64,000 nucleotides of DNA, from positions 30,788 to 94,787 of IMG/VR virus record IMGVR_UViG_3300025133_000049; one strand, 5' to 3'. The notes under the pieces are model-generated. The model was not told where the DNA came from. It worked only from the letters and a program-made list of their open reading frames with translations, and ran no database searches. A program made the translations under genes and the position numbers. Positions within the stretch are counted from its first letter, which is position 1, and every line of letters starts with the position of its first letter. Shown piece by piece: positions 28,939-45,427 of this stretch. The DNA is from a virus.

Positions 28939-31900
28939 ATGGCCATAGATCAAGATGCTACTAAAGATTTAAAGATGATTAACCCGGAACCGTCTCCAAG
29001 TGATTCGGCTTTTGAGGCCATGTTTGATTCAGCAAAGAGAACAGGAAGTTCTAGACCTGTTCCTACAAGTGCAGCCGCACAACAGAAAGCTATTAAAGGA
29101 ATGCAAGCAGATATCTTCTTTGATCAATCAGTTCAAGAGGGTAGTAGAGATCAGAAGCTAGATAAGTATGCTTCTTCTTTCGAAGATAAGAATGCAACCC
29201 GAGCTAGAAACCAAAATGAAGCTATCAAAGGTATCAAAGCTATTGGTGGAGGTTTAATTCAGGGTGGGCTTATCGTAGGTGAGCAGTTAGGTTATGTAGC
29301 AGATCTAAAGAATACTGCCAAGATGTTCAGTGATGCTGAAGATATGTCAGGTAACTGGTGGTCTAACATGTTTAGAGATGCTCAAGATAGTTTGAGAGAA
29401 TCTGATACGTTTAAAATTTACGAGAGTGGTACTGACGAGAACAGTATCCTATCTCAGATATTCAAGTGGAGTTCATTAGAGGGAGCTATCTCGTCCGCCG
29501 TAGGATTCGGTGTATCAGGATTAGGGGCAGCTTCCGTTGTTTCTAAGCTAGGTGCTTTAAAACAATTTGGTAAATTAGCGGCTATGACTGATAAGGTCAT
29601 GGGTAATGTTGCAGCTCGAGGTTTAACTGGGGTCAAAGCAGCTAAGGCTATGCAAGGTGCTGTAGGATCAACAAGAGCGTTTACAGGTCCTCTAGCATCT
29701 TCAGCTATGTCTAACTTCTATATGGGTCAGTTAATGGCTACAGATACATACACTCAATCAATGGATGCCATTAGAGGTAAGATTGATTCAGGTGAGATAT
29801 CTGAATTAGATGCTCAGAAGATAGCAAATGAAAATGCAAAGAATGTAGTTGGATTGAACATGGCTTTGGCCACTACTTCTTTCCTACGATTTGGTAGTAT
29901 ATTTAAAAGAGGTGGTAGACTAAAAGGATTGGTAAAGGATCCTACTGCAATGGCGCAGTTAAAAGATATGGTTATCAAAGGTTCTCCTACAGCATTCGGA
30001 GAAAACGTTTACCAGGAGATGATTCAAATGGAACAGATCTACAAGACTTCATTAGAAGCCGGCGTAGCATCTAAGTATGGTTCTGGTTATTGGGATAGAA
30101 TGACTCAACTAGCTTTATCTAATCGAGCAATGCATGCAGGTGCTCTAGGTGTAGTAGGTGGGCCTATCCAATTTGCTATTATCCAAAAGCCTTTGATGAG
30201 AGAACAGCACAAACAACAAAAAGAAACGTTTGACAATCAACAAGCCTCCCGGAAGTATCACGCTACTATGGTAGAGAATTTAGTTAAAGGTGATATGACT
30301 GCTTTCATGGAGTTCGACAAAGCTAGAAACGAAGCCATCATTGCTGGTGACTTTGAAGCAGCTGCTCTTGCAGAAGATATGGGATTGATTCGTGAAGTAG
30401 TTAAGTCAAATGAATGGGGAACAATAGATTACCTAAGACGAGATATAGAAAATGAATTAAAGCACAAAGAAACTCCAGAGGGATACGATGCTAACTATAA
30501 AGAAAATGGACAGAGAGCATTAGAGATGTTGGACAAGGTTGAAAGTTATAACTATGCATATAGTCAGTTTGAAACTAAGTCAGATTTAATCTATACAAAT
30601 TTAGCGATAGATGCATTGAACTCGAAGAGAGTAGAGAACAATCAGAAACTTGTAGCCTCTGCGCAACAGGTTCAAGCCATGGCTGTACTAGAAGGTGTTG
30701 AAGTTAACTTCGATACTGACACAGGTAGGTTTACAAAAGTAAAGAGAGATAAGAATAGATTCGAAGGGTTATCAACTAAAGAAGCAGTAGCTCAAAGAAA
30801 CCTCGAGAAGACTCAGGACAAAGCTTATGACAAGTTCATGGAGAAGGCTGAGGATATAACCGGATACAAAGATGCAATCAAATCTGATGTTAAGTATACA
30901 AACTTAGGTCAGAAGTTATTAGATAAGTATTCTTATTTAAAAAGTGATAAGGCTCAAGAGAAGGCCCTCAAGATGAAGAAGGATCAGTATGATAATGCTA
31001 AAGAGAATATCAAAAAAGCTGACGCTGAAGATAAAGCTGCAGCTACTGAAAAGAAAAACTCAGGCTTAACTCCTTTCTCAGTTGTTAAAGCAAGAGCTAA
31101 TAAAGAAACTGCTGAAGAGAAGGCGGTTAGAACTAAAGCTTGGGATGCTGAGGTGCAAGGTGTTAACACTCCTAGAGAGGGAAACACATTTACATCTAGA
31201 GATCAACAAGGTGTATCTAGACTTTATAGTAAGGGGGATATGTTGAGATCTAATGATGGTAGATATTTTAAAGTAGATACTCAAGCCGGCGCTGCTAAGA
31301 ATGCTAACCTAGCATCTTATGCTATGCCATTGGTATATGAAGTTACAGCTGAAGGTAAGAAACCTGGAGGTAAAGAGGATAGATGGATTAGATTTATTCC
31401 AGAAGATAATACATTCTTCAGACCAGAGGTTAAACAAGCTCATTATAATAGCAAAACTAAATCTTGGTATCATAAAGGTAACACACCTTTTGCCCCTTAC
31501 GTAGATGTTGACTCAGCTTTTAAACCAAACAATGAGTTAGCTCAGGAAGCTAGAAGACAAAAAGCTGCAGATGGTATTGCTTTAAGTGTAAATAATTTTG
31601 AGTTAGAAGCTAACCAACCAGGTGAGGGTCAACAAATTGTTGAAACAGAAATGGCTGCGGAGTATGACTTGAAGTCTTTGAACAATCCGTTGTTCCCAGG
31701 TGAATCCTATGAAGTTACTTTTAAATTAAATAAGCAACCTAATGGACAAACATTTGTTGATGTTTATAGAGGAGATAGTAAACTTACAAGATTAGATAGA
31801 CACTCTAACTTAAATCATCAAGTGATAGCACAAGCTTTACTTAAAGGTGAAGTTGCGGGATCTGTTATAGGTCACTACAGTAGTTCTAACAATCTGGTTA

Positions 31901-34900
31901 AACTTAGAAATGAAGATGGTACTTTTGTACAAAGTAGTATAGCTGAACTATCTAAAATGGATTCTAAGTATCTAGTTAACGGTAAGGTTCACTTTGCTAT
32001 CAACCCAGGAGAGTATGCTCAGAAAGAACCTGTAACGATGGCAGAAGATGGTACTATCATTACAGATAACAGAATAGAGCATACAGATGCAGATGGCGTT
32101 AAACATTCATTGAGCATTCCATATAGTTCTATGAAAAGTCCTGGAGATACTTACATGTTAATCATAGGGCCAGGTGGTCATATTATTCCTATAGCAACTA
32201 GAGGTAAGAAGCTAGCTGAGCTTGATAGTATGTCAGGAGAAGGAACTAGAGCTGATGATATAGTTAAAGAGGTTGCCCAGGTAACAGAAGAATTCATCAC
32301 AGAGGATATGTTAGAAGGTATGTCTGAATCTGAGTTCGATACAAACCTCAGAGCTACAATAGCTGTATCAAATAAATCTAGTCATGAACAAGCTCAAGAA
32401 TTTAGAAATCAAAAGATAGCTAAGCTTGATGAGCATTGGAGAGATTTCTCTAAGAAGATGGAGGAAACCATTTATCAAACAATTAAAAAGGACGGACGTA
32501 AGTGGAACTCTATAGGAACTACTCAGTCTGGTGAAAACATTTATCAAGCTACAGAATCCGGAACTAGAATTGTTAATCCTAACATGTTTAAGATTGGATT
32601 GTATGTAGATGAAAATGGAAAGTTCACTCCACAAATTCAAGAAGGAACTGGAACTACTAAAGTAAACTATACAAACCTATCTGAATCTGCTACTGAATTT
32701 ACATTAGCATTAGGAGATCGATTTGATAAAATAAGTTATGACAGATTCCTAGATTCGGGAGATGCTGCTACAAACAAAACTAATGCGGAGTATATATTAA
32801 ATGAATCCGGATTATCTACTGATTTAAATATCAGAAGACCTTTTGCTGGATCCTCAGCCACTATTAAAGTAGATGGTATGGATATAGCTGTTGAAGGAGC
32901 TGCAGTAGCAGACAAACATTTCACTAAGCATGACAGAGGTTCTATCGAAGCTATAACTAAACCTGCAGACGAAGCATTTAAGAAATCAACTATCGAAGAA
33001 CTAGATACATTTACTTCTTTCGAATCTACAGATGCTGACAGTATTGGTCAGTTGATGGGTGAAGAAGCTGGAGATGCTATATCTCATGTACTAGCATTCC
33101 TTGGAGATCTTGGGTTAGCTAACATGCCTAAAGTCAATAAAGAATTTAAAGACTTTATCAATAAAGAAGTTGAGGTAACTGAATATCAAGACAGTTTAAA
33201 ATATGCTGAGGCCGCTGGTTTCAAAGGGGAGAATGCAGTAATGGCCGCTAAGGTTCATTCATTTCTTACAAACTTAACTGTAGATATTAAAAATAACAAA
33301 CAAGCTTTATTCACAAAGGCTAATCAAAGCATGAGTGAAAAAGAAATTCAATTAGAGAACCATACTTTCAAAAGAGGAGCTCAAGTTTATTCTAAGAAAC
33401 ACGGGAAAGGTACTATTACCAAAACTGTGAAGAATGGTTATTACTTCATGAAGAACTACAAAGGTGATACTAAGAAAGTTTGGGCCGCTGATGTTGTTAC
33501 TTTAGATAGTAAGTACACTGAATTATTTAAAGCTCAAAGAAAACTTGCTAAGATGGATCCAGCAGATACTGGATATAAAACCACTAAAGCAACTGTAACT
33601 AGATTGGAAGCTAAGTATCTTAAACACTCAGCTGTTCCTTCTAATGAAACTGTTAATGATGGACCTAAAGTTACAGCTACTCCTGCAGTTAGTACTAAAA
33701 AGTGGACTACTGGAAGCACCAGTTTAACTATTACAGATGCTCATGATAGAGTTGCTACAGTTATGGCTACCTATGGTGGAATATCTGCAAAAGGTAATGA
33801 ACTAGCTGCTCAAAAGAAAGCCAATGGAGAGAAGCTTGGGTTGACTAGGGATGAAGCTACAAACTTCCATAAGTTATTGGAAGATAATATAATATTCACT
33901 GAAGCTGAATTATTAGATCTAAAAAGAAAAGCTGCTGACTTAGGAGCTAAACACGGCAATGAGGTTCTAGCTAATCAATCTGAGAACTTCATAGCTCTAA
34001 ATGAGATCTATAAAAATATCAAAGCTAACACTGATATGACAAAAGCTTATCCTACTTTACAAGTAGCTAAGGTAAACAAAAGAGGTGTTACAACTAAACT
34101 GAATTATGCTCCTATCTCAATGCTTAACACAGGGTTACCTGAGATGGGATCTACAAAATCTATTACATCTCCGTTTAGTGCTGGAGAACTTGGTGGATCA
34201 TTCAAAGCGGTTACTACAGCTATGCAGAATGTTTTAAAAACTATGGAAGCAATGGAAGCTCTAGAAGCTACCGACGGAGTTGTAACTCCAGCTGAAGTAG
34301 CTCCTTCTGTAGAAACTAAGACAGCACCTGCTGAAGCGCCTGGTAAAAAGATAACTATAGAAACTACACCTAAAGCAGATTCAGTTGCTGATGTATTTAA
34401 ATCAAAAGGATTAAGTCCTGCCTTAGCAGAACAAGTTACTCAGTTAACAGATAATCAACAGTTTGAGTTAAAACAAGCTATGGATTTATTTGAAGGTATG
34501 GAACAACCACTGCCATCTACATTAGAAGAAATTATGGAAGGACCTAAGTTCAAATCTGGGGATGCTGTTACATTAAGTAAAGCAGACTTCCACGCGGAGG
34601 TAGTAGCGGCTAAAGCTATGCTACCACAAGTTCCGTTTAAAGTTGTAGAGAATGTTGTAGCAATGGTAAATAAATATGGTACCAAAGCAATTGGGGCTTA
34701 TCACCAAGGTGTTGTAACTTTAGTTGAAGGTGCTAGAAAAGGTACAGCTTATCATGAAGTATTTCATGGTGTAGCAGATCTTCAATTACGTCCATTCGAA
34801 AAGCAAGCAATTGCTGAGGAGATGGGTTATCAAAAATGGAACTTAGAGTTAGAAGAGAGGTTAGCTGATATGTTTGCCGAGTATGTGGTAAATCATCAGG

Positions 34901-35172
34901 ATACTTCAATAGTAGGTAAGGTTAAACGGTTCTTCCAAGGTTTACTGGATTGGTTTAATGGAACTAGAACTCCTGAACTAACTAGACAGATATTTGAAAA
35001 GACCGCCACAGGTGGGTACGCTTCTTCTACTAGTCTCAATTATTTATCTAATATTGAGAATCATGTAAGAAAGTTTAGTACGATGGATGCCTTTCAAAAT
35101 TCGCTATCTCAAAAAGAATCAGTAACTTTACGGAATCTTATGAACAACAAAAGAATTAAAATAGTTTGCTAA
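28939..35172 (+). CDS. Giant cargo protein with C-terminal zinc metalloprotease
   Basis: This 2077-aa protein begins with a disordered region. Gly/Ala-rich hydrophobic segments lie near residues 95-120 and 175-205, then long charged helices. A small SH3-like beta unit (KHGKGTITK…KKVWAADVV) sits near residue 1490-1520. At the C-terminus AYHEVFHGV supplies H1939, E1940 and H1943 (HEXXH), and EERLAD at 1972-1977 supplies a downstream Glu: a gluzincin-type zinc protease. Such a domain next to the polymerase is known in crAss-like phages. It may process virion proteins or host targets after injection. The hydrophobic stretches would suit membrane passage. It ends two bases before the polymerase gene. 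Confidence 0.7.
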   Translation: MAIDQDATKDLKMINPEPSPSDSAFEAMFDSAKRTGSSRPVPTSAAAQQKAIKGMQADIFFDQSVQEGSRDQKLDKYASSFEDKNATRARNQNEAIKGIKAIGGGLIQGGLIVGEQLGYVADLKNTAKMFSDAEDMSGNWWSNMFRDAQDSLRESDTFKIYESGTDENSILSQIFKWSSLEGAISSAVGFGVSGLGAASVVSKLGALKQFGKLAAMTDKVMGNVAARGLTGVKAAKAMQGAVGSTRAFTGPLASSAMSNFYMGQLMATDTYTQSMDAIRGKIDSGEISELDAQKIANENAKNVVGLNMALATTSFLRFGSIFKRGGRLKGLVKDPTAMAQLKDMVIKGSPTAFGENVYQEMIQMEQIYKTSLEAGVASKYGSGYWDRMTQLALSNRAMHAGALGVVGGPIQFAIIQKPLMREQHKQQKETFDNQQASRKYHATMVENLVKGDMTAFMEFDKARNEAIIAGDFEAAALAEDMGLIREVVKSNEWGTIDYLRRDIENELKHKETPEGYDANYKENGQRALEMLDKVESYNYAYSQFETKSDLIYTNLAIDALNSKRVENNQKLVASAQQVQAMAVLEGVEVNFDTDTGRFTKVKRDKNRFEGLSTKEAVAQRNLEKTQDKAYDKFMEKAEDITGYKDAIKSDVKYTNLGQKLLDKYSYLKSDKAQEKALKMKKDQYDNAKENIKKADAEDKAAATEKKNSGLTPFSVVKARANKETAEEKAVRTKAWDAEVQGVNTPREGNTFTSRDQQGVSRLYSKGDMLRSNDGRYFKVDTQAGAAKNANLASYAMPLVYEVTAEGKKPGGKEDRWIRFIPEDNTFFRPEVKQAHYNSKTKSWYHKGNTPFAPYVDVDSAFKPNNELAQEARRQKAADGIALSVNNFELEANQPGEGQQIVETEMAAEYDLKSLNNPLFPGESYEVTFKLNKQPNGQTFVDVYRGDSKLTRLDRHSNLNHQVIAQALLKGEVAGSVIGHYSSSNNLVKLRNEDGTFVQSSIAELSKMDSKYLVNGKVHFAINPGEYAQKEPVTMAEDGTIITDNRIEHTDADGVKHSLSIPYSSMKSPGDTYMLIIGPGGHIIPIATRGKKLAELDSMSGEGTRADDIVKEVAQVTEEFITEDMLEGMSESEFDTNLRATIAVSNKSSHEQAQEFRNQKIAKLDEHWRDFSKKMEETIYQTIKKDGRKWNSIGTTQSGENIYQATESGTRIVNPNMFKIGLYVDENGKFTPQIQEGTGTTKVNYTNLSESATEFTLALGDRFDKISYDRFLDSGDAATNKTNAEYILNESGLSTDLNIRRPFAGSSATIKVDGMDIAVEGAAVADKHFTKHDRGSIEAITKPADEAFKKSTIEELDTFTSFESTDADSIGQLMGEEAGDAISHVLAFLGDLGLANMPKVNKEFKDFINKEVEVTEYQDSLKYAEAAGFKGENAVMAAKVHSFLTNLTVDIKNNKQALFTKANQSMSEKEIQLENHTFKRGAQVYSKKHGKGTITKTVKNGYYFMKNYKGDTKKVWAADVVTLDSKYTELFKAQRKLAKMDPADTGYKTTKATVTRLEAKYLKHSAVPSNETVNDGPKVTATPAVSTKKWTTGSTSLTITDAHDRVATVMATYGGISAKGNELAAQKKANGEKLGLTRDEATNFHKLLEDNIIFTEAELLDLKRKAADLGAKHGNEVLANQSENFIALNEIYKNIKANTDMTKAYPTLQVAKVNKRGVTTKLNYAPISMLNTGLPEMGSTKSITSPFSAGELGGSFKAVTTAMQNVLKTMEAMEALEATDGVVTPAEVAPSVETKTAPAEAPGKKITIETTPKADSVADVFKSKGLSPALAEQVTQLTDNQQFELKQAMDLFEGMEQPLPSTLEEIMEGPKFKSGDAVTLSKADFHAEVVAAKAMLPQVPFKVVENVVAMVNKYGTKAIGAYHQGVVTLVEGARKGTAYHEVFHGVADLQLRPFEKQAIAEEMGYQKWNLELEERLADMFAEYVVNHQDTSIVGKVKRFFQGLLDWFNGTRTPELTRQIFEKTATGGYASSTSLNYLSNIENHVRKFSTMDAFQNSLSQKESVTLRNLMNNKRIKIVC

Positions 35173-35173
35173 C

Positions 35174-38100
35174 ATGGCTTGTAAAATAGAAAAAGTATCT
35201 GCAGAGAATGGTAAGGATTCATTATTATATAAAAGTCTAACTGCCAAATACCCGGAATCAATAGCGTTAACCAAGTATATAGATATCATGTCTGAAGCTG
35301 AAGGTAATGCTAAGATATATGGTAAAGATAAAAACGGGGAACCTGTAGCACAAGTTGATGGACCTAAGTTTAAGTTAGCTGAATTTAATTCTTACCAAGA
35401 ACAAATTGACTCAATGGAGTTGATGAGTTCTATGTTAGTTAGTGAATTTGCAAATACATTAAGTATTAAGGACCCATCTAAATTAGCGGGATTTGACTTA
35501 GCTAAACTAGACGGTGATCTAGTGGCTTTATCTGCAGCTGTTGCAAACGTTAGAAATAATTTAAAGCGGATGATGTTCAAAGCTCCTAGAGATGTGCAGG
35601 AGATTTACAAAACTATTATTCTTAATATGCCTCAGTATCTCGAACCTAGAGGCCCTCTTACTAGAAAACTAGCTGAGAGAGGTGTACTAATCAGAGTTAG
35701 AGATGAGTCAGTAACTGATCTTTTAGAACAAGGGTTAGAAGCTGAAAATGGTACAGTTGACTCTGATGTTGTTCGTGTTTCTTATGAGAGAATCTATGAT
35801 ATGGAAACTCTTGAAAGTTCTGCAATGAGATCTATTTCTGAAGAAGTTAAAACTTATATCAGAGGAAAAGAAAAAGTAAATGATAAAGGAGAATCAGAAT
35901 TAAGTTTATTAGGAACTCCAAGGCCAATTGAAGCAGGAGAAGCTATCTCAGATATGTTTACAGTTCTTGCAGGTGTTCAAAATCCTAGTGAAATGTTGGA
36001 AAGATTAGAACAAGCTGTAGGTCTCAAACCTCATCTTATGCCTATCTATTCTGACTTAATGAATGAACAACCTAAGCAGATTAAAGTTAATAATAAAACG
36101 ATAGAATATAAACCTATTACTGCTCAATTGTTTAGTACATTCGCTAAGCAAGATTATAACATGCACTCTGTTGTAGAAAAGATTGGTGGTGGTGTAATGA
36201 TCACTGCAGCTAATGCATACAATACAAGAAACAATCTTAAAAATAGATGGAAACAACAAACTTCTGATATAGCTCAAACTGATCAGACTAGAAATATAAA
36301 TAAATTAAATTCTTATACCAATCGAGCTGATTTAAATAGAAAGCTTAGACAAGGTAACAGTTTAGCATTAAAATCTACAGCTGCTTATATGAGAGCTGCA
36401 GGTTTTCATAATGTTACTCCAGCTATCTTAAAGGATATCGTAGATACATTCAATACAAAATCACAACCACCAGCATTTAAAAATCAAAGTGCGGGAGCTG
36501 TTCTTGTGAACATGCTTAACCTTGTAGCCAAGCCGGCCTTACAAGGAAAGGATATATTTAAAAATGTAGGTGAAACAATGGCTGAGACTAAATACTTAAA
36601 TCTCTTAGCTGAACATTCTACAAAATATGAAACAGATGTAACTGCAGGAGCCTTTAAAAACTCAGCAGGTAAAACTACACACCCTTTAAATAAAGGGTCA
36701 GAAGCTCAAGATATATGGTTAAGATTGAACAGGGATACAAAGTATGCTAATCAGTTCTTAAATGATCCTATGTATGAGAACACTAAAATATTAAATACTT
36801 TATTTAGTAATCCAGAAGGATTAAATGTAACTTCATTCTCTACATTGAGTAATGAAAGTGTAACTAACTCTGGTGTAGCTTTTGGTCAGTTATCTAATTA
36901 TGATGCGATCAATCTTAAACTGAATAGTTACTTCCAAGGTAAAGATTCATTCCATGCATATGGGCCAACACAAGCGGATAGAGGAAATATTAGTGCTTTA
37001 GTTTTACCTAAGATTTCTCAAGATGAAAAGATATTTGATCAGAGTGGTACAGTAATATCACCTGATATTAAAGAGTGGGTTTTCAATCAAGTCAAAGGTG
37101 AACTACAAAGAGTATTAAACACTAAAGATTCCGGCTATAAAAATCATAATAAAAACTCTCAGATGTTTAATTTATTTGAAGGTTTAAATGAGATATTTAA
37201 AGCGGAGGATGTGAACATGTCTAACATCGATCAGTTGGCCACCAGGCTAGCTGTGACAGCAGAACAACATCTTTATGCTGCAATACAAAGCGACATTGCA
37301 TACATGGCTAAGAAGGGAGTTATAGAGCTCGACGTATCTGGTGGAGTTAGATCATATAAATTAACTAATGATGCAATTGTAAGTGATAACGCGCACTCAA
37401 AGGGGAAGATCACCAATAAAGCGCTTAACGAGTTCTTGGTGAATAATTTTATTTACACATACGAACAAACATTATTCTACGCAGGTGACCCTGCTTTCTT
37501 TAAAGGAAAAGTAGATATGAACAAGAGGATGGGATTAGCCTTTACTCCAGGTGAAAAAGTAACAGTAGGTGATGCTACAGGTATAGGACCAACAGCTAAA
37601 ATTAAAATACTTCAGGAAGCTGAGATGAAGTCTGAGATGGCCGAAGTATATAAAGAACTGTTAGGAGAAAAAGCTGGTAAGGCTTTCTTACAAACAGAAG
37701 TAGCCGATGGTGCTGGTTTTGTTAGCTTAGATCGATATGGTGACCTTGCTTTAAGTAGAGGTAAACACTCTATAGCTATGTTAGAGTATATTGATGAGAT
37801 GAGCAGATGGGATCCTAAAAAACCTATGCCATCAACAGAAGCTGTTCTAGAAGTATACAAAGGATTCTATTTTAGATTACATGCAGATGAAACAGGTGTG
37901 AGACCTTTTAACTTAAAGTATTCTACACTCCCAGTATTCCCTGCATTCTTTGAACAAACTAAAGCAGATGGATCACTCAAGTACCCAGGTATGGCTAAGA
38001 TATCACAAGAACTTAGAAGTGGTAGAGCTGATGAAGTTGTAATGGGTTCTGCTGTAAAAGTTGGTGGATCTAATTTTGCAACATTAGAAACTCTAGCTGG

Positions 38101-41100
38101 AACAGAAGCTACAGTAATATACAATGAATCATACAGGTTCCCACAGGATTCTCCAACTAAAGATAAAACTGAAGATAACTTCGGTTCTCAGATGAGAAAA
38201 CTTATAACATCTAATCAAACTCCTGCAGGTAAACTGTCCGTGTTTGGTGAGACTGTTAGTGAAGGAGCTAGTATAGGATCATACAATGATGCTATTACTA
38301 AAATAGTAGGTAATGCTGCGACCAGGTTAAATAAAAGATTCCTCAATGGGGATTCTGCACCGAAAGTTGCTGAGCCTATGACCATGGAGAAAGCTAAGGC
38401 TACTCTTGAGAAAGTTCAAAAGAACACAAAGTTTATTAAACTTGAAGATGATGGTAGTGGGTATGTGAATACTAAAACAGGAAAACGTTACCAAAGAGTT
38501 ACAGAGTTTATATCTACCAAGGAGACTAAGATGAATGATGTCTTAAAATCTGCAGTTAACATCGGTAATAAATTGGATGTATTAACTAGGGATTTCTTTG
38601 ATGGGAACTTAAAAAGTGCAAAGGAATATGATGTTGCAGACTCACATATAGTTAAAGGTTATGTTAACCAACTCAAGGAAGTGAAAGCATTCATGGATAA
38701 GAGAGGTGAGGTGGTGATGGCTAATGATATAGTTTTATATAATGACGAGATAGGTGTTGCTGGTACCGTGGATTTAATCACATATGATAAAGATGGTGAG
38801 GTGAGAATCTACGATATGAAGACTATGAGAGGTAATCAACTTACAGAATCTTATGCCGCAGACCCAACTGTTTCTAAATATGATACTACTGTTTATGGAG
38901 ACTCGAACAGAGAGAAGCATAGAAAACAGTTAAGCATGTATAGAATATTGCTTAATAATACTCATGGGATTAAAGCTAAGGAAACGGCTATTATTCCAAT
39001 TGAGGTTATGTATAAACAAGGGGAAACTAGAACTAGTAGAATGAATCTACTTGATGGTATTCCAGTAAAACCTTTATCTAAAGTAGGGGAAGCTGAATTG
39101 ATTAATCTTGATCCAAATAAAGGGTATCATAAAGGAGAACTTAATACAGCTGAACTTGTTTCTAGTATCCTAGATAGTGCTGAAGCTAGTGGTTTTGTAA
39201 ACTTAGATTACTTCTTAGAAGCATTAACAGTTAAAGATGGTGAACTTACTTTACCTTTAAATTATCCTACGATTAAATTTAAAACAGATAGTTTAATTAA
39301 CTCTGCTTATAAAAAAGGAGCAGGTAGAATTAAATTAGCAGGACACTCTGCAGTACAGGTATCTAGTTTAGGTATGGTGGCCAATAAGGGGGAGTTCTCT
39401 ACAGATAGTGATTTAAAATTTGTTAGATTTTCTAAAAAAGGAAGTAACAAAGAATTGAGTCAACTTGATTCTATGGAGGTTTCCAGGAGAATTAGAGCGG
39501 GAGAAGATGTATCAGGTGAGTTTAAAACATTACCGGCACAAGTTAGAGTTAGCCCTAAGTTCTTCAAGAACAAACTTAAAGAGATTGCTAAAGGTAGAGT
39601 TAATAAAGCGGCCATTGGTGAAGCTTTGACTGGGTATAGAAATCATCTTAAAGAATCTGGATTATCTGAAGCACAGAAACAAAATAAGGTTAAAGCATAT
39701 GAAAGTTTCTTAAACAAAAAAGAAGCAAAGAAAGCTTATGATAAGTTAGCTAAAACTTTAAAAGATGATAAAGGTAATTGGGATGCATCTAAATTAGGAG
39801 AAGTAGCAGACATAGTTCTATACAGAATTCCTACACAAGCAAAGAACTCAATGTTATCGGGTACGATAATTGGTTTCCTTCCAGAAGAGTCTGGGGCGAC
39901 TATCCAAGTGCCATCTGAAATAGTTGACCAAGCCGGATCGGATTTTGATATTGATAAGGTTTATATTGAAACAACTGATTTCAATGTTAGTGAAGGACAA
40001 ATCAAAAGAGTTATGCCAGACTTTAACGAGTATGGTGAATTAGGAGAGAACAGTGACAGACAATTGAAAGCTTATATTCAAGAGTATCATAAAGCTGTTT
40101 TAAGTTCTACAAATCATGTAAGTGAATTAATGACGCCAAACGATACTATTGTCCTCAGTAAACTTGTAGAAGAGTTTAATATGGGTGATGATGTATTCAA
40201 CGGTAACTGGGCATCATTAGCATTACAAGAAACATTTAGATCTAATAACAAAGCAGGTAAGGAAATGATTTCTATTTCATCTGTAGCATCTGTTGCACAT
40301 GCGATAGCAGAACAATTAGGTGTTGAATCTGTAGGCGATATTAAGATAGCAGGTAAAACCTTAGAGTTAGGTTCTATCTTAAATTCTGATGGAACTAGAA
40401 TATCTGATGAGATAGGTGAGATACAAAATGCTGCATTGGATAATGCAAGAGATCCTCTATTAGGTAAATTAAATATTGACGCATTTACAGCATCAGTTGT
40501 TATGTTGTTAGTATCTGCAGGACATGGTTTAAAATATGCAGCCACTGTAGTTAATGATCCTATCATCAGAGATTTAGCTAGTGAATATCAAAAACACACT
40601 AGACATTCATCTCCTAGGATAGCTTATGAAACTGCTGTTGCAAATGTTAAAAAGAGATATGCAATTAGAGGTAAGCTTCCTAAAGTTAAGCTTGCTGATT
40701 ACTCTTTAGAGAATGCTGAGAACAATAGAGTAGATCAATCAGTAGAAGCTAGAAAAGAAGCTTTAGTTGTATTTGACGAGTTAAAGAAAATTGGGGATAA
40801 ATTATCTAAGTTCCAAACATCTTTGAACTTTGATTCTAAAGGAACTCCTTCTACGTCTCACGGTTTAGTATCTAAAGCTGTAGATATTGCAAGTGTACCT
40901 GGAACTTATTTAAATACAATGACATTGAATGGTGTGGGTCCACTAGCTGAGATAGGATTAACTCAAGAAATTAAAGATGCTGATTCTTTATTTAAAGTAG
41001 ATCCGGATTTATATGAAACCTCTCAGATAGGTGCCTTTGAAAAAGGTGTTATCATCGATCCATTAATAGTGAATAGAAAGATTTCAGTAGCTGCTTCTGT

Positions 41101-42322
41101 AGTTGGAGCCGATATAGTTAAACTTGCTAGATCATTAAACATATTTGATGAAAACGGTTTGACACATGTATTCAATGAGTTCGATACTTTCTTATTACAG
41201 AACCCTGTTGCATTCAAAGATAGTTCTACTGACATAGCTAATATGACTAGTTCTGAATTAGCTTCGTTAACAGATCCATCAAGTGCATTATCTCCTTCTA
41301 ACCTTCTAAGGTCATATAGAGGTAATCTTAAAGAGGGTGAATTGGAGAATAAGTTCACTAAAGGTTTAGACATAGTTGCAGAAGGTGGTCATGAATATAT
41401 CACGATCAACAATAATTTATCTGTAGGTATGACTCCTGAAGGACAACAAGAAGTTATGGTATTCTTCGAAGATTTAATGGCTTCTGATAATACTGCTGAA
41501 GCAACTCTTGCTAAGCAATTAACTAAGTATGCATTAGCTGTTAGTGGTTATTCTAAATCATTCTCAAGCTTTATGCACTTACTTCCTCCATCAGCTCATG
41601 TTGCTTACACAAATAGTGTAGAGACATTTAGAAATATGGGAGATCAATATGATAATGCTTCTGCATTTCATACTGGGAAGTTCTTAGATATGTATGTTCA
41701 AAATAATGCAGATAGATTAAAAATTCCAGTGAAGAAAGATTTAACTTCATTTGGTGAATTTGAAAAAGCTCCTACATATGTTTTCAAATATATATCTAAA
41801 GATAATAAGCAATTGCATAAATGGTCAAAAGAGAACTTAAGTTATGACAGAATAGGTCAAAGAGGTCTCAAAGGTTTAGTTAAAGAGTATCATGATGGTG
41901 AATCAATGTATCACTCTGATGGTAGTATGGCCCAATTCAACGCTGAAGGAGCTAAGCTTAAAGCTACATCTCAACAGAAAGGTAATATACAATTACTACA
42001 AGCAGAGCTGATGGTGATCAGTGAAGTTATCTCCTCTCTTATGGCAGAGGATATAACTAATGCAGACCAAGCAGCTAAAGCTGTAACTAAAGTACAAAGA
42101 AAACTTATAGAACTATCCGGTAAAGAAGATACCCAGACGTTTAGAGATTTCATTGGTAAACAAGTACCAACCATTAAAAAGTTTGTAGATAAACGAATTA
42201 ATAGAGGTCAAGACATTACTTTCCAAGAAACTTGGAAAAGAAAAATGGACGGTCAAATGGTAGAAACTCTACCTTACGAACCGTTCTTTAGAAAATTAAT
42301 CCAGAAAATAAAAGAATGTTAA
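35174..42322 (+). CDS. Virion-packaged RNA polymerase with embedded nuclease-like domain
   Basis: This 2382-aa protein carries GSDFDIDKVYIE, where D1590, D1592 and D1594 form the DxDxD metal-binding site of the crAss-like virion RNA polymerase, a two-barrel enzyme related to eukaryotic RNA-silencing polymerases. It is injected with the genome and transcribes early genes in Cellulophaga phage phi14:2. Before it, residues about 1130-1260 read as a PD-(D/E)XK nuclease core: GTVD with D1200, IYDMK with D1214 and K1216, and QLSMYR with Q1252. The N-terminus (MACKIEKVSAENGKDSLLYKSL) resembles that of the next protein. It is slightly longer than the phi14:2 enzyme. Polymerase identity is firm; the nuclease part is by motif only. 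Confidence 0.85.
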   Translation: MACKIEKVSAENGKDSLLYKSLTAKYPESIALTKYIDIMSEAEGNAKIYGKDKNGEPVAQVDGPKFKLAEFNSYQEQIDSMELMSSMLVSEFANTLSIKDPSKLAGFDLAKLDGDLVALSAAVANVRNNLKRMMFKAPRDVQEIYKTIILNMPQYLEPRGPLTRKLAERGVLIRVRDESVTDLLEQGLEAENGTVDSDVVRVSYERIYDMETLESSAMRSISEEVKTYIRGKEKVNDKGESELSLLGTPRPIEAGEAISDMFTVLAGVQNPSEMLERLEQAVGLKPHLMPIYSDLMNEQPKQIKVNNKTIEYKPITAQLFSTFAKQDYNMHSVVEKIGGGVMITAANAYNTRNNLKNRWKQQTSDIAQTDQTRNINKLNSYTNRADLNRKLRQGNSLALKSTAAYMRAAGFHNVTPAILKDIVDTFNTKSQPPAFKNQSAGAVLVNMLNLVAKPALQGKDIFKNVGETMAETKYLNLLAEHSTKYETDVTAGAFKNSAGKTTHPLNKGSEAQDIWLRLNRDTKYANQFLNDPMYENTKILNTLFSNPEGLNVTSFSTLSNESVTNSGVAFGQLSNYDAINLKLNSYFQGKDSFHAYGPTQADRGNISALVLPKISQDEKIFDQSGTVISPDIKEWVFNQVKGELQRVLNTKDSGYKNHNKNSQMFNLFEGLNEIFKAEDVNMSNIDQLATRLAVTAEQHLYAAIQSDIAYMAKKGVIELDVSGGVRSYKLTNDAIVSDNAHSKGKITNKALNEFLVNNFIYTYEQTLFYAGDPAFFKGKVDMNKRMGLAFTPGEKVTVGDATGIGPTAKIKILQEAEMKSEMAEVYKELLGEKAGKAFLQTEVADGAGFVSLDRYGDLALSRGKHSIAMLEYIDEMSRWDPKKPMPSTEAVLEVYKGFYFRLHADETGVRPFNLKYSTLPVFPAFFEQTKADGSLKYPGMAKISQELRSGRADEVVMGSAVKVGGSNFATLETLAGTEATVIYNESYRFPQDSPTKDKTEDNFGSQMRKLITSNQTPAGKLSVFGETVSEGASIGSYNDAITKIVGNAATRLNKRFLNGDSAPKVAEPMTMEKAKATLEKVQKNTKFIKLEDDGSGYVNTKTGKRYQRVTEFISTKETKMNDVLKSAVNIGNKLDVLTRDFFDGNLKSAKEYDVADSHIVKGYVNQLKEVKAFMDKRGEVVMANDIVLYNDEIGVAGTVDLITYDKDGEVRIYDMKTMRGNQLTESYAADPTVSKYDTTVYGDSNREKHRKQLSMYRILLNNTHGIKAKETAIIPIEVMYKQGETRTSRMNLLDGIPVKPLSKVGEAELINLDPNKGYHKGELNTAELVSSILDSAEASGFVNLDYFLEALTVKDGELTLPLNYPTIKFKTDSLINSAYKKGAGRIKLAGHSAVQVSSLGMVANKGEFSTDSDLKFVRFSKKGSNKELSQLDSMEVSRRIRAGEDVSGEFKTLPAQVRVSPKFFKNKLKEIAKGRVNKAAIGEALTGYRNHLKESGLSEAQKQNKVKAYESFLNKKEAKKAYDKLAKTLKDDKGNWDASKLGEVADIVLYRIPTQAKNSMLSGTIIGFLPEESGATIQVPSEIVDQAGSDFDIDKVYIETTDFNVSEGQIKRVMPDFNEYGELGENSDRQLKAYIQEYHKAVLSSTNHVSELMTPNDTIVLSKLVEEFNMGDDVFNGNWASLALQETFRSNNKAGKEMISISSVASVAHAIAEQLGVESVGDIKIAGKTLELGSILNSDGTRISDEIGEIQNAALDNARDPLLGKLNIDAFTASVVMLLVSAGHGLKYAATVVNDPIIRDLASEYQKHTRHSSPRIAYETAVANVKKRYAIRGKLPKVKLADYSLENAENNRVDQSVEARKEALVVFDELKKIGDKLSKFQTSLNFDSKGTPSTSHGLVSKAVDIASVPGTYLNTMTLNGVGPLAEIGLTQEIKDADSLFKVDPDLYETSQIGAFEKGVIIDPLIVNRKISVAASVVGADIVKLARSLNIFDENGLTHVFNEFDTFLLQNPVAFKDSSTDIANMTSSELASLTDPSSALSPSNLLRSYRGNLKEGELENKFTKGLDIVAEGGHEYITINNNLSVGMTPEGQQEVMVFFEDLMASDNTAEATLAKQLTKYALAVSGYSKSFSSFMHLLPPSAHVAYTNSVETFRNMGDQYDNASAFHTGKFLDMYVQNNADRLKIPVKKDLTSFGEFEKAPTYVFKYISKDNKQLHKWSKENLSYDRIGQRGLKGLVKEYHDGESMYHSDGSMAQFNAEGAKLKATSQQKGNIQLLQAELMVISEVISSLMAEDITNADQAAKAVTKVQRKLIELSGKEDTQTFRDFIGKQVPTIKKFVDKRINRGQDITFQETWKRKMDGQMVETLPYEPFFRKLIQKIKEC

Positions 42323-42325
42323 TCC

Positions 42326-45300
42326 ATGGCTACATGTAACATAACAATAAAAGCTAAAGATGGTGAGTCATCTTTCCTTTTCAAAGAATTATTAAACGTA
42401 AGCAACAACCCTGCTAACGCAATAGATCAATATTTCTATACAAGAACTGAAGAGTTTAAAAGAGAATTTGGTGATTGGGAAGCACCTGGGTTTGATAAGT
42501 CTAAATTAGATGCCAGAGGAGAACCTTTGTTCTCAGCTATATCTGATGAAGCTTGGCATTTTGATACAGACTTTGCAAATATAAATCTAGAAGAAGGAGC
42601 AGCTATTTATAAAAAAGTTCTTGATGTAGCTCCTGTATTGATAGATACTCTTGAGACTAAGTTAAAACAACTTAAAGGTTTGAGAAAAGGAACAGCCATA
42701 CTTGCAATTAAACAAGTAGAAAGCTTATTAGAAACTTTGAAGACTGAGGACTTAGCTACAGGTATTCCTAAAGTATTAGCAAGTTCTTCTAAGTACTTAG
42801 CCAGACTTAAAGAGAGAGCTTTAAATAGTGCAAAAAGCGGAACCGACATACGTAAGTTAGCGGGTATTCATAAAGATGCTCAATCTTATAGAATTGTAGG
42901 AGATTTACAAAATCAATTGTTAGGTACATTAGAAGCTTCGGAGATATTCTCTGAGGATCTCTTTGGTTCTATTTCCAGTGTAATGGGAGATATGTTAGCT
43001 ATTGAAAATGTATATATGGAAGTAGCTAAGAAACATTTAGTTGAAGCATTTCATTCACAAGATTCATCTTGGAGTAAGAAGAGTATCAGAGATTGGTTAG
43101 ATCATGCACCAAGGGATACTAAGAAAACTGAAATGGCCCTAGAGTACCTGGGAGATTCTCATGATAGGGTATTATCAGCTACAGCCAAAGCAGTTAAAAA
43201 TGTACAGAATGATGTACGTGTTGCTAGTATAGAATTTAATAAAAGATTAGAGGTAGCTCAGATAGCTTTAGAAAAAGAATCTGGGACTAATAATGCAGAG
43301 AAGATGTATGGTGACATTATCTATAAAGGGAAGGACGGTAGTTTAAAATACCTCAACCCTAACATGGAAGCCACGGACTCTAGATTTGCTCAATTAGAGA
43401 AAGTAAGAACTAGTAAACCAGCCTTATATGATTTCTTAGTATTGTACTCAGATACAATGCAAGAGTTAACAGCAATGACCGGCGCTAAACTAGAAGGATC
43501 ACTCCCTATAGTTCTTAAGGCAGGTAGAGAAAGAATACAAGGACAGAATTTAAAAGATAGATATAAACAATTAGCGGATGATAGTAAAAAATCTTTCCTT
43601 AAGTCTAACCAGGATTTAGAAAAAGGTGAGGTAACTAATGGGGTATACCAGGCTAAGGTTCCGGTATATTATACTAACAAGTATGACTCAGTTGATTACG
43701 AATCTTTTTATAAGGACAAATACAAAGAGTTGATTGAAGGTGGGTTAACTGATATAGCAGCTGATGAACAAGCTGATACATATGCAACATTTAAAGCTAC
43801 TGAAAAGAATGCTGAGTTTGTTAGTAAAGATTTAGCATATAGCTTACAATCATTCCACGCAATGGGAACTAATTATGCTCAAATGGATGCTGTTATAGAT
43901 ACCTTAGATGCGGCCAAAGCTGTGGTAGGTTCTAATCAACGTACATACACCTTGGTTGATTCAGGAGGTAAAAGAATAATGAGAAAGATTAGAGGAGCTG
44001 ATGGTAAAGCATTACCAGAAACAATTGGTGGTCCAGAATCGAATTCATACAAAGCTCTAGAGTCATTCTTAGAAGCTCAAGTATACGGTCAAACAGAAGC
44101 ATATAAAGGTACATTTAAAATAGGTAAACATACGATCGATACAGCTAAAGTGCTACGTAAATTAAATAGCGGAACTAGTTGGGTTCAGATGAGTATGAAC
44201 GTACTAGCATCAGCGGCCAATGTAGGTAACGGCGAGTATAATAACGTTATGGAATCTATGGGTGGTGAGTATTTTAATACTAAAGATTACCGTGCGGGAT
44301 CGAAGTTCTATGCTCAACATTTGTCTGGAGTTCTTAGTGATTTCGCAGAGAGAACACCTAAGAGTTTACTAGGTAATATCATAGAGCACTATGATACTAT
44401 GCAAGACTTCCAGGCTAAAGGTACTATCAAAGGAACTGAAGGTACAGCTGCTAGAAGATTGATTAAATGGGATTTAGCTTTCTTCTTACAAAATGCCGGC
44501 GAACACTTTATGCAAACTAGAGCTGCATTAGCTGTATTCAATAACACTAAGACGTTCAATAAAGATGGAACAGAAGCCGGTACTTTACTTAGTGCACACT
44601 CTGTAAAGAATGGATCATTAGTTATTCAGGATGTATACGTTAAAGGTAAAGATGGTGAGTTAGCTAAGTTCGATAGAGCTGAACAGAATAGAGTAACCAA
44701 CAGAGCACAGGCTATTATTAGAAAGTTACACGGTAACTATAATAAACAAACAGCTAACTTAATGAAGAGAGATGCTAGAACAGCATTACTACTTAAGTAT
44801 CGTGATTGGGCTTATGAAGGTATTGTTAGAAGATATGGTAAGAAACAATACTATGATTCATTAGAACAAGATGTGGAAGGATTCTACAGAACAGGAGCTA
44901 GAGTTCTAGGAGCTCAAGCTAAAGCAATATCTAAATTACAATTGTCTCTAGTTAAAGAAAACTGGGCCAACCTAACTGAACATGAGAGAGCTAATGTACG
45001 TAGAGCTGTAATGGAAATAGCTGCATTAACAGCTTTATCTATAGCAGGAGCTTTAATGGCTCACGCAGGTAAGATGGTAGAAGAAGAATACGACGGAGAT
45101 AGTTTTGGAGATATGGCAGCCAGGGGAACCTTTGCTTTCATGAACTATGAAGTGAACAGATTATTCACGGAACTTGCAGCATATTCTAGTATAGGTGAAG
45201 CACTTAGATTAATGCAAACACCTGCTGCGTCTACCTCAATACTCGAAGGTTCTTATAAACTTCTGGTACAGGCATTCAATCCTACAGAGGTTTATGAGAG

Positions 45301-45427
45301 TGGTTGGAGAAAAGGACAATCTAAACTAGGAAGAAGAGTTGAAGCTTTGACTCCTATTTATAAAAATTTAAATACAATATTTAACAAGGAGGGTATTGAA
45401 GAAAAAGGAATCTTTTACGAGATATAA
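42326..45427 (+). CDS. 1033-aa cargo protein sharing an N-terminus with the polymerase
   Basis: Residues 1-25 (MATCNITIKAKDGESSFLFKEL) align with the start of the virion polymerase, suggesting a common virion-packaging or export signal. Residues 40-72 (EFKREFGDWE…SKLDARGEPL) match a motif seen beside toxin-like domains in phage polyvalent proteins. The remainder is helical and charged. Residues about 894-915 (VMEIAALTALSIAGALMAHAG) could be a membrane helix or hydrophobic core. I see no catalytic signature. It is three bases after the polymerase and is probably co-packaged. Confidence 0.6.
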   Translation: MATCNITIKAKDGESSFLFKELLNVSNNPANAIDQYFYTRTEEFKREFGDWEAPGFDKSKLDARGEPLFSAISDEAWHFDTDFANINLEEGAAIYKKVLDVAPVLIDTLETKLKQLKGLRKGTAILAIKQVESLLETLKTEDLATGIPKVLASSSKYLARLKERALNSAKSGTDIRKLAGIHKDAQSYRIVGDLQNQLLGTLEASEIFSEDLFGSISSVMGDMLAIENVYMEVAKKHLVEAFHSQDSSWSKKSIRDWLDHAPRDTKKTEMALEYLGDSHDRVLSATAKAVKNVQNDVRVASIEFNKRLEVAQIALEKESGTNNAEKMYGDIIYKGKDGSLKYLNPNMEATDSRFAQLEKVRTSKPALYDFLVLYSDTMQELTAMTGAKLEGSLPIVLKAGRERIQGQNLKDRYKQLADDSKKSFLKSNQDLEKGEVTNGVYQAKVPVYYTNKYDSVDYESFYKDKYKELIEGGLTDIAADEQADTYATFKATEKNAEFVSKDLAYSLQSFHAMGTNYAQMDAVIDTLDAAKAVVGSNQRTYTLVDSGGKRIMRKIRGADGKALPETIGGPESNSYKALESFLEAQVYGQTEAYKGTFKIGKHTIDTAKVLRKLNSGTSWVQMSMNVLASAANVGNGEYNNVMESMGGEYFNTKDYRAGSKFYAQHLSGVLSDFAERTPKSLLGNIIEHYDTMQDFQAKGTIKGTEGTAARRLIKWDLAFFLQNAGEHFMQTRAALAVFNNTKTFNKDGTEAGTLLSAHSVKNGSLVIQDVYVKGKDGELAKFDRAEQNRVTNRAQAIIRKLHGNYNKQTANLMKRDARTALLLKYRDWAYEGIVRRYGKKQYYDSLEQDVEGFYRTGARVLGAQAKAISKLQLSLVKENWANLTEHERANVRRAVMEIAALTALSIAGALMAHAGKMVEEEYDGDSFGDMAARGTFAFMNYEVNRLFTELAAYSSIGEALRLMQTPAASTSILEGSYKLLVQAFNPTEVYESGWRKGQSKLGRRVEALTPIYKNLNTIFNKEGIEEKGIFYEI

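Follow-up and report, generated by a model that had tools for sequence, protein, structure and literature searches.

The RNA polymerase encoded in the window (a 64,000-nucleotide stretch, positions 30,788 to 94,787 of virus record IMGVR_UViG_3300025133_000049) contains, as judged from sequence profiles and a structural model, a PD-(D/E)XK nuclease of the RecB/AdnA/EXO5/MGME1 type at residues ~1071-1310. This is probably a self-contained, metal-dependent DNA nuclease of RecB/EXO5/MGME1 type, inserted in a crAss-like virion RNA polymerase with which it would be injected and to which it would stay tethered; DNA is the most likely substrate. A PDDEXK domain in the large crAss-like transcription proteins has already been noted in general terms by Yutin et al. 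2021 (PMC7886860). Among the papers examined, which leave aside the phi14:2 polymerase paper and the figures of Yutin et al., none was found to describe a nuclease placed between the two barrels of the catalytic subunit, and within that scope it is this placement that is new.

The transcription block and the nuclease domain

The polymerase, here protein B, is the middle member of a three-protein block, A-B-C, placed after the tail genes. The features discussed below are these, in window coordinates:

28939..35172, + strand: protein A, a 2077-aa gp47-like transcription-block protein, without the nuclease, unlike relatives (C-terminal match to a Dulem virus 41 gp47-like protein; strong match to protein A of L068 and L086)
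35174..42322, + strand: protein B, the 2382-aa crAss-like RNA polymerase catalytic subunit, counterpart of phi14:2 gp66 and crAss001 gp50 (phmmer to 6VR4, AlphaFold model match)
37418..38320, + strand: first double-psi beta-barrel region, residues ~749-1049, with conserved K962, G1004 and Q1006 (profile alignment to 16 other polymerases)
38345..39127, + strand: inserted segment of 261 aa (residues 1058-1318) that sister polymerases lack (L068 alignment; empty sites in 6 and in 16 polymerases)
38384..39103, + strand: predicted PD-(D/E)XK nuclease domain, residues ~1071-1310 (PF12705, phrog_298, AlphaFold, Foldseek)
38576..38578, + strand: D1135, motif I acidic residue on the first core helix (D 47, H 7, E 5 of 69 distinct rows)
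38771..38773, + strand: D1200, predicted catalytic Asp of GxxD (65/65 non-gapped relatives)
38813..38821, + strand: D1214 and K1216, predicted active-site D-x-K (65/65 non-gapped relatives each)
38927..38941, + strand: Q1252 and Y1256, QxxxY motif of RecB-type nucleases (Q 64/64, Y 63/64 non-gapped)
39809..40006, + strand: second double-psi beta-barrel with DFDID (1590-1594), the polymerase active site (alignment with phi14:2, crAss001 and others)
42326..45427, + strand: protein C, a 1033-aa gp49/g065-like RNAP-associated protein, without the nuclease, unlike cr1_1, L027 and L030 (phmmer 1.6e-53 to crAss001 gp49)

Protein B is a crAss-like RNA polymerase related to that of phi14:2 (PDB 6VR4), with which it shares three collinear segments in a phmmer comparison (E 4.5e-22) and, for the AlphaFold model of residues 645-1840, a structural match at 2e-24. 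As in phi14:2 gp66, two barrel regions occur in one chain, the DFDxD motif is present as DFDID, and the block has the order A-B-C; in the alignment, the motif falls inside a conserved RIPTQ...GSDFDIDK block. The phi14:2 g066 product is annotated as detected through MS/MS proteomics, and crAss001 gp47, gp49 and gp50 were detected in virions by MS (PMC10172136). By homology with these virion counterparts, protein B is inferred to be packaged in the virion and injected.

The complete virus record (94.8 kb) contains matches to terminase, portal and major head proteins, together with a replication block that comprises a family A DNA polymerase, a FEN-type 5'-3' exonuclease, DnaB-like and SF2 helicases and a ligase. 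The inserted domain is the sole copy found across this record with PF12705 and a profile of the domain. The upstream part of the same crAss-like genome also encodes a homologue of the RIIA lysis-inhibition protein (L149:13477-15999, - strand; phrog_612, 1.2e-20).

Sequence profile, structure prediction and fold search agree that the presumed virion polymerase has a PD-(D/E)XK domain within its chain, as the original prediction had proposed. With the segment alone, hmmscan gave 25.9-26 bits to PF12705 (PDDEXK_1), above the curated cut-off of 22, and with the whole of protein B 21.2 bits, slightly below it; the corresponding E values for phrog_298 ('exonuclease') were 1.6e-17 and 5.6e-16. Homologous domains in crAss-like phages were detected at E values as low as 6e-21, and 36 of 38 relatives also match PF12705. 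Agreement of this order lies far outside what chance would give. An AlphaFold model of the domain, built with 38 sequences (mean pLDDT 91.1, pTM 0.85), has the expected alpha-beta-beta-beta-alpha-beta order, with D1200 at the hairpin, D1214 and K1216 on the next strand and Q1252 on the following helix. Foldseek matched it to AdnA (3.7e-5) and EXO5 (8.8e-5), with low global TM-scores of about 0.3-0.4, to MGME1, AddAB, RecE, lambda exonuclease and Cas4, and, in BFVD, to crAss-like proteins. The domain has its own topology and is not part of the polymerase core.

All of the proposed motifs were recovered at the predicted residues, with D1200 in AGTVD, the strand Y1213-D1214-M1215-K1216 and Q1252 in QLSMY, and the estimated distance of about 370 residues to the polymerase active site is borne out by the 376 residues that separate D1214 from DFDID. 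The proposed extent (38540-38980, residues 1130-1260) was correct in location but too narrow, since the domain spans ~1071-1310 and includes D1135, which had not been listed.

The domain looks complete, and by its sequence active, with intact catalytic residues. In the alignment of 38 relatives, D1200, D1214, K1216, Q1252 and Y1256 are among the invariant columns. Across all distinct hits, every one of the 65 non-gapped rows keeps D1200, D1214 and K1216, and 59 of 69 rows have D, H or E at position 1135. Because of the fold match and this invariance, the acidic residues are expected to cluster in space. Polymerases often bear insertions without an enzymatic role, and the domain might be a catalytically dead structural element; this is very improbable, given that D1200, D1214, K1216 and Q1252 are invariant although overall identity is only 29-50%. 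The fold and conserved residues make metal-dependent cleavage of DNA the most likely activity.

AdnA/AddB/RecB, EXO5, MGME1, RecE, lambda exonuclease and Cas4 have the PD-(D/E)XK fold and active site in common with the window domain, but these enzymes are stand-alone or helicase-fused. Residues 1058-1318 also contain no cysteines and therefore no iron-sulphur cluster of the kind found in the AddB, EXO5 and Cas4 branch; Cas4 models score 16.1 bits, far below their cut-off of 65. Searches with the domain found no meaningful sequence match in the PDB, no match in plasmids, and one match, weak and distant, in bacterial and archaeal genome contigs.

Insertion between the barrel regions

Alignments and the structural model show the nuclease domain as a clean insertion in a loop; on one side lies the helix closing the first barrel region, and on the other the helix with which the linker to the second barrel begins. 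L068, the polymerase closest to that of the window, matches residues 1-1057 and 1319-2210 of protein B, and where these two stretches meet, its own residues 1109 and 1110 directly follow each other. A multiple alignment shows the site empty in L086, L069, L030, L027 and L025 as well; it falls in a variable loop flanked by helices that the AlphaFold model puts at 1030-1056 and 1325-1338. When protein B was aligned by MAFFT with 16 diverse polymerases, an alignment in which a single row carries the nuclease, residues 1058-1318 were essentially unmatched; the domain is thus an insertion absent from 16 related polymerases. The earlier reading had left it uncertain whether other crAss-like polymerases carry the domain, and it proves to be widespread in crAss-like transcription proteins at other positions, with the site between the barrels seen to be used in no other locus examined.

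Linker lengths agree with this picture. The linker between the barrels is longest in the window, at 497 residues, among 162 ORFs with both barrel regions, a set in which some contigs occur more than once and the window also figures (as L004). In ORFs with a complete first region, the median is 167 and the 5-95% range 138-258. The aligned segments are separated by about 145 residues in phi14:2, as compared to about 480 in the window, and no nuclease was found in phi14:2 gp66, g067 or g065. The same linker in L069 (L069:5105-12247, residues ~1340-1515) holds a different extension of ~170 aa, without a nuclease, and it seems that this linker tolerates insertions. In a second AlphaFold model, pLDDT is below 50 across much of the insert, and the nuclease is unplaced relative to the polymerase active site.

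The precision of the insertion and the empty sites in relatives would also fit a selfish insert, such as an intein or a homing-type element carrying a PD-(D/E)XK nuclease, and crAss-like phages are described as rich in inteins and introns (PMC7886860). This is scarcely credible here, as the insertion lies in a variable loop rather than in a conserved motif, and the same domain is stable in other large transcription proteins of many genomes. An intein or homing element was rejected because splice residues are missing: the insert has neither a cysteine nor HN(C/S/T). In bajarodcaudo virus 1 (L015:20402-21297) the polymerase gene is split inside the active-site motif (GSDFD / VDK) by a group I intron that carries an endonuclease ORF.

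Mis-assembly of a metagenomic contig was also considered, as the insertion is represented by a single assembly, and viral contigs searched for an exact match to the left junction gave no further copy. It is nevertheless a highly improbable explanation: both junctions keep the reading frame and coincide with domain boundaries, and the GC content of the insert is 0.354, compared to 0.352 and 0.341 for the host gene. A scan of viral contigs with the whole of protein B found nothing.

Location of the domain in related phages

Homologous PDDEXK domains with the same catalytic residues accompany the transcription block in crAss001 (gp47), DAC15, cr106_1, cr1_1 and cr4_1, but they are in the upstream or downstream protein rather than in the catalytic subunit. 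The upstream protein carries the domain in crAss001, DAC15, cr106_1, cr128_1, Dulem virus 41 and bajarodcaudo virus 1, and the downstream protein in cr1_1 and cr4_1. Non-redundant loci with both the nuclease and the polymerase motif comprise 33 with an upstream nuclease (8 encoded on the opposite strand, 11 with an ORF of its own, 14 as part of a fused A-B ORF), 19 with a downstream nuclease (15 within the C ORF and 4 where the ORF is fused to the polymerase) and two, the window and L056, with a nuclease in the catalytic region; since many of these loci were selected for carrying the nuclease, the counts do not measure how common each arrangement is. In a set of 85 loci picked on the polymerase only, 20 have the nuclease in the stretch covered and 65 show none there, and in none of the 85 is it between the barrels. 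No such nuclease was found anywhere in L069 (88.7 kb). By these sequence comparisons, the nuclease is not essential to all crAss-like phages.

The L056 insertion is, judging by its position, independent of that in the window: an insert of ~1000 aa interrupts the first barrel region on the upstream side of the GSQ motif, and only in the window is the nuclease between the two barrels. The L056 insert (L056:5021-14131, + strand, residues ~895-1898) has the nuclease at its end; it further contains two motifs seen by eye and without a Pfam match, a zincin-like HEYAHH and a nucleotidyltransferase-like GS...DLD.

Other enzymes are found in these polymerase proteins as well. In L086 (L086:4478-12559, + strand), a polymerase insertion of ~430 aa (residues ~1445-1874), starting about 20-25 residues after DFDID, contains a P-loop kinase-like domain (AAA_33, 1.4e-15; GISGSGKST and DTTNLT, in polynucleotide-kinase style) and DUF7831 (1.7e-26). 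The fused A-B polymerase proteins of the Suoliviridae end in a RecD/Pif1-like SF1 helicase (AAA_30, 1.7e-25 in residues 4462-4907 of L006:10497-25337 and 5.2e-21 in residues 4249-4448 of L010:10662-24986).

The nuclease appears, from comparison of these proteins, to change its address among the transcription proteins with its catalytic residues unchanged. In the polymerase tree, L068 and L086 join the window in one clade (support 100/100), within which the nuclease is in B in the window, in A in L086, and absent from A, B and C in L068, where the 45-kb contig gave no nuclease match at all. In the nuclease tree, the window domain clusters with nucleases that other lineages carry in A (support 93/94), and its identity is 47-51% to the L021/L022/L023 lineage and 36% to its sister phage L086. 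These relationships suggest that the nuclease was acquired horizontally, or exchanged between lineages, with L021/L022/L023 indicated by sequence; an AU test does not reject a clade of the window and L086 nucleases (p 0.26).

Possible functions of the nuclease

If protein B is delivered as its homologues are, the nuclease would be delivered with the injected polymerase and enter the cell ahead of any phage gene expression. In relatives the domain is found in one or the other of the neighbouring transcription proteins, or is missing, and for this reason the module may be expected to act as a tethered arm and not as a part of RNA synthesis. DNA is the likelier substrate, since the fold relatives act on DNA. 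A first guess is that the nuclease would act on the ends of the entering phage genome, with limited resection for circularisation or recombination; host DNA is another candidate. Against the preferred reading, an unrestrained DNA exonuclease would endanger the phage's own linear DNA.

The injected module might instead serve mainly in host takeover, degrading the host chromosome or a resident competitor early in infection, with the phage DNA spared by location or protection. The fold shared with DNA exonucleases, the delivery with the early polymerase presumed by homology, and its status as the sole PF12705-type nuclease found in the genome are all consistent with this. It is somewhat unlikely, however, as RecB-type nucleases usually need free ends, and a non-exhaustive search of the genome identified no DNA-modification or protection system.

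Cleavage of RNA, in transcript processing or cleavage-primed initiation, is less likely than DNA processing. Some PD-(D/E)XK enzymes act on RNA, and influenza PA provides an example of a PD-(D/E)XK endonuclease carried, as in the window, by a viral RNA polymerase, although that polymerase is unrelated, the nuclease is in a separate subunit and its role is in RNA cap-snatching. The position of the window domain within the polymerase chain, at the spacing from the active-site motif given above, is compatible with such a role. This explanation is improbable, given that the closest folds are DNA exonucleases, that sister polymerases lack the domain, and that most relatives have it in another protein.

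A broader possibility, and a doubtful one, is that the crAss-like injected transcription proteins form a shared chassis onto which enzymes are grafted and moved between chains, together making up an early machine for processing DNA or RNA ends, at work on the same nucleic acids as the polymerase. The grafted enzymes would, just as tentatively, include this nuclease, the kinase-like P-loop domain of L086 and the Suoliviridae helicases.

The crAss-like phages dominate human gut viromes, and their large injected cargo may have roles beyond early transcription. With the nuclease in the catalytic chain and natural sisters in which the site is empty, both activities could be tested cleanly in a single protein. 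That the domain is kept while its protein address shifts suggests selection for delivery with the polymerase rather than for a fixed place.
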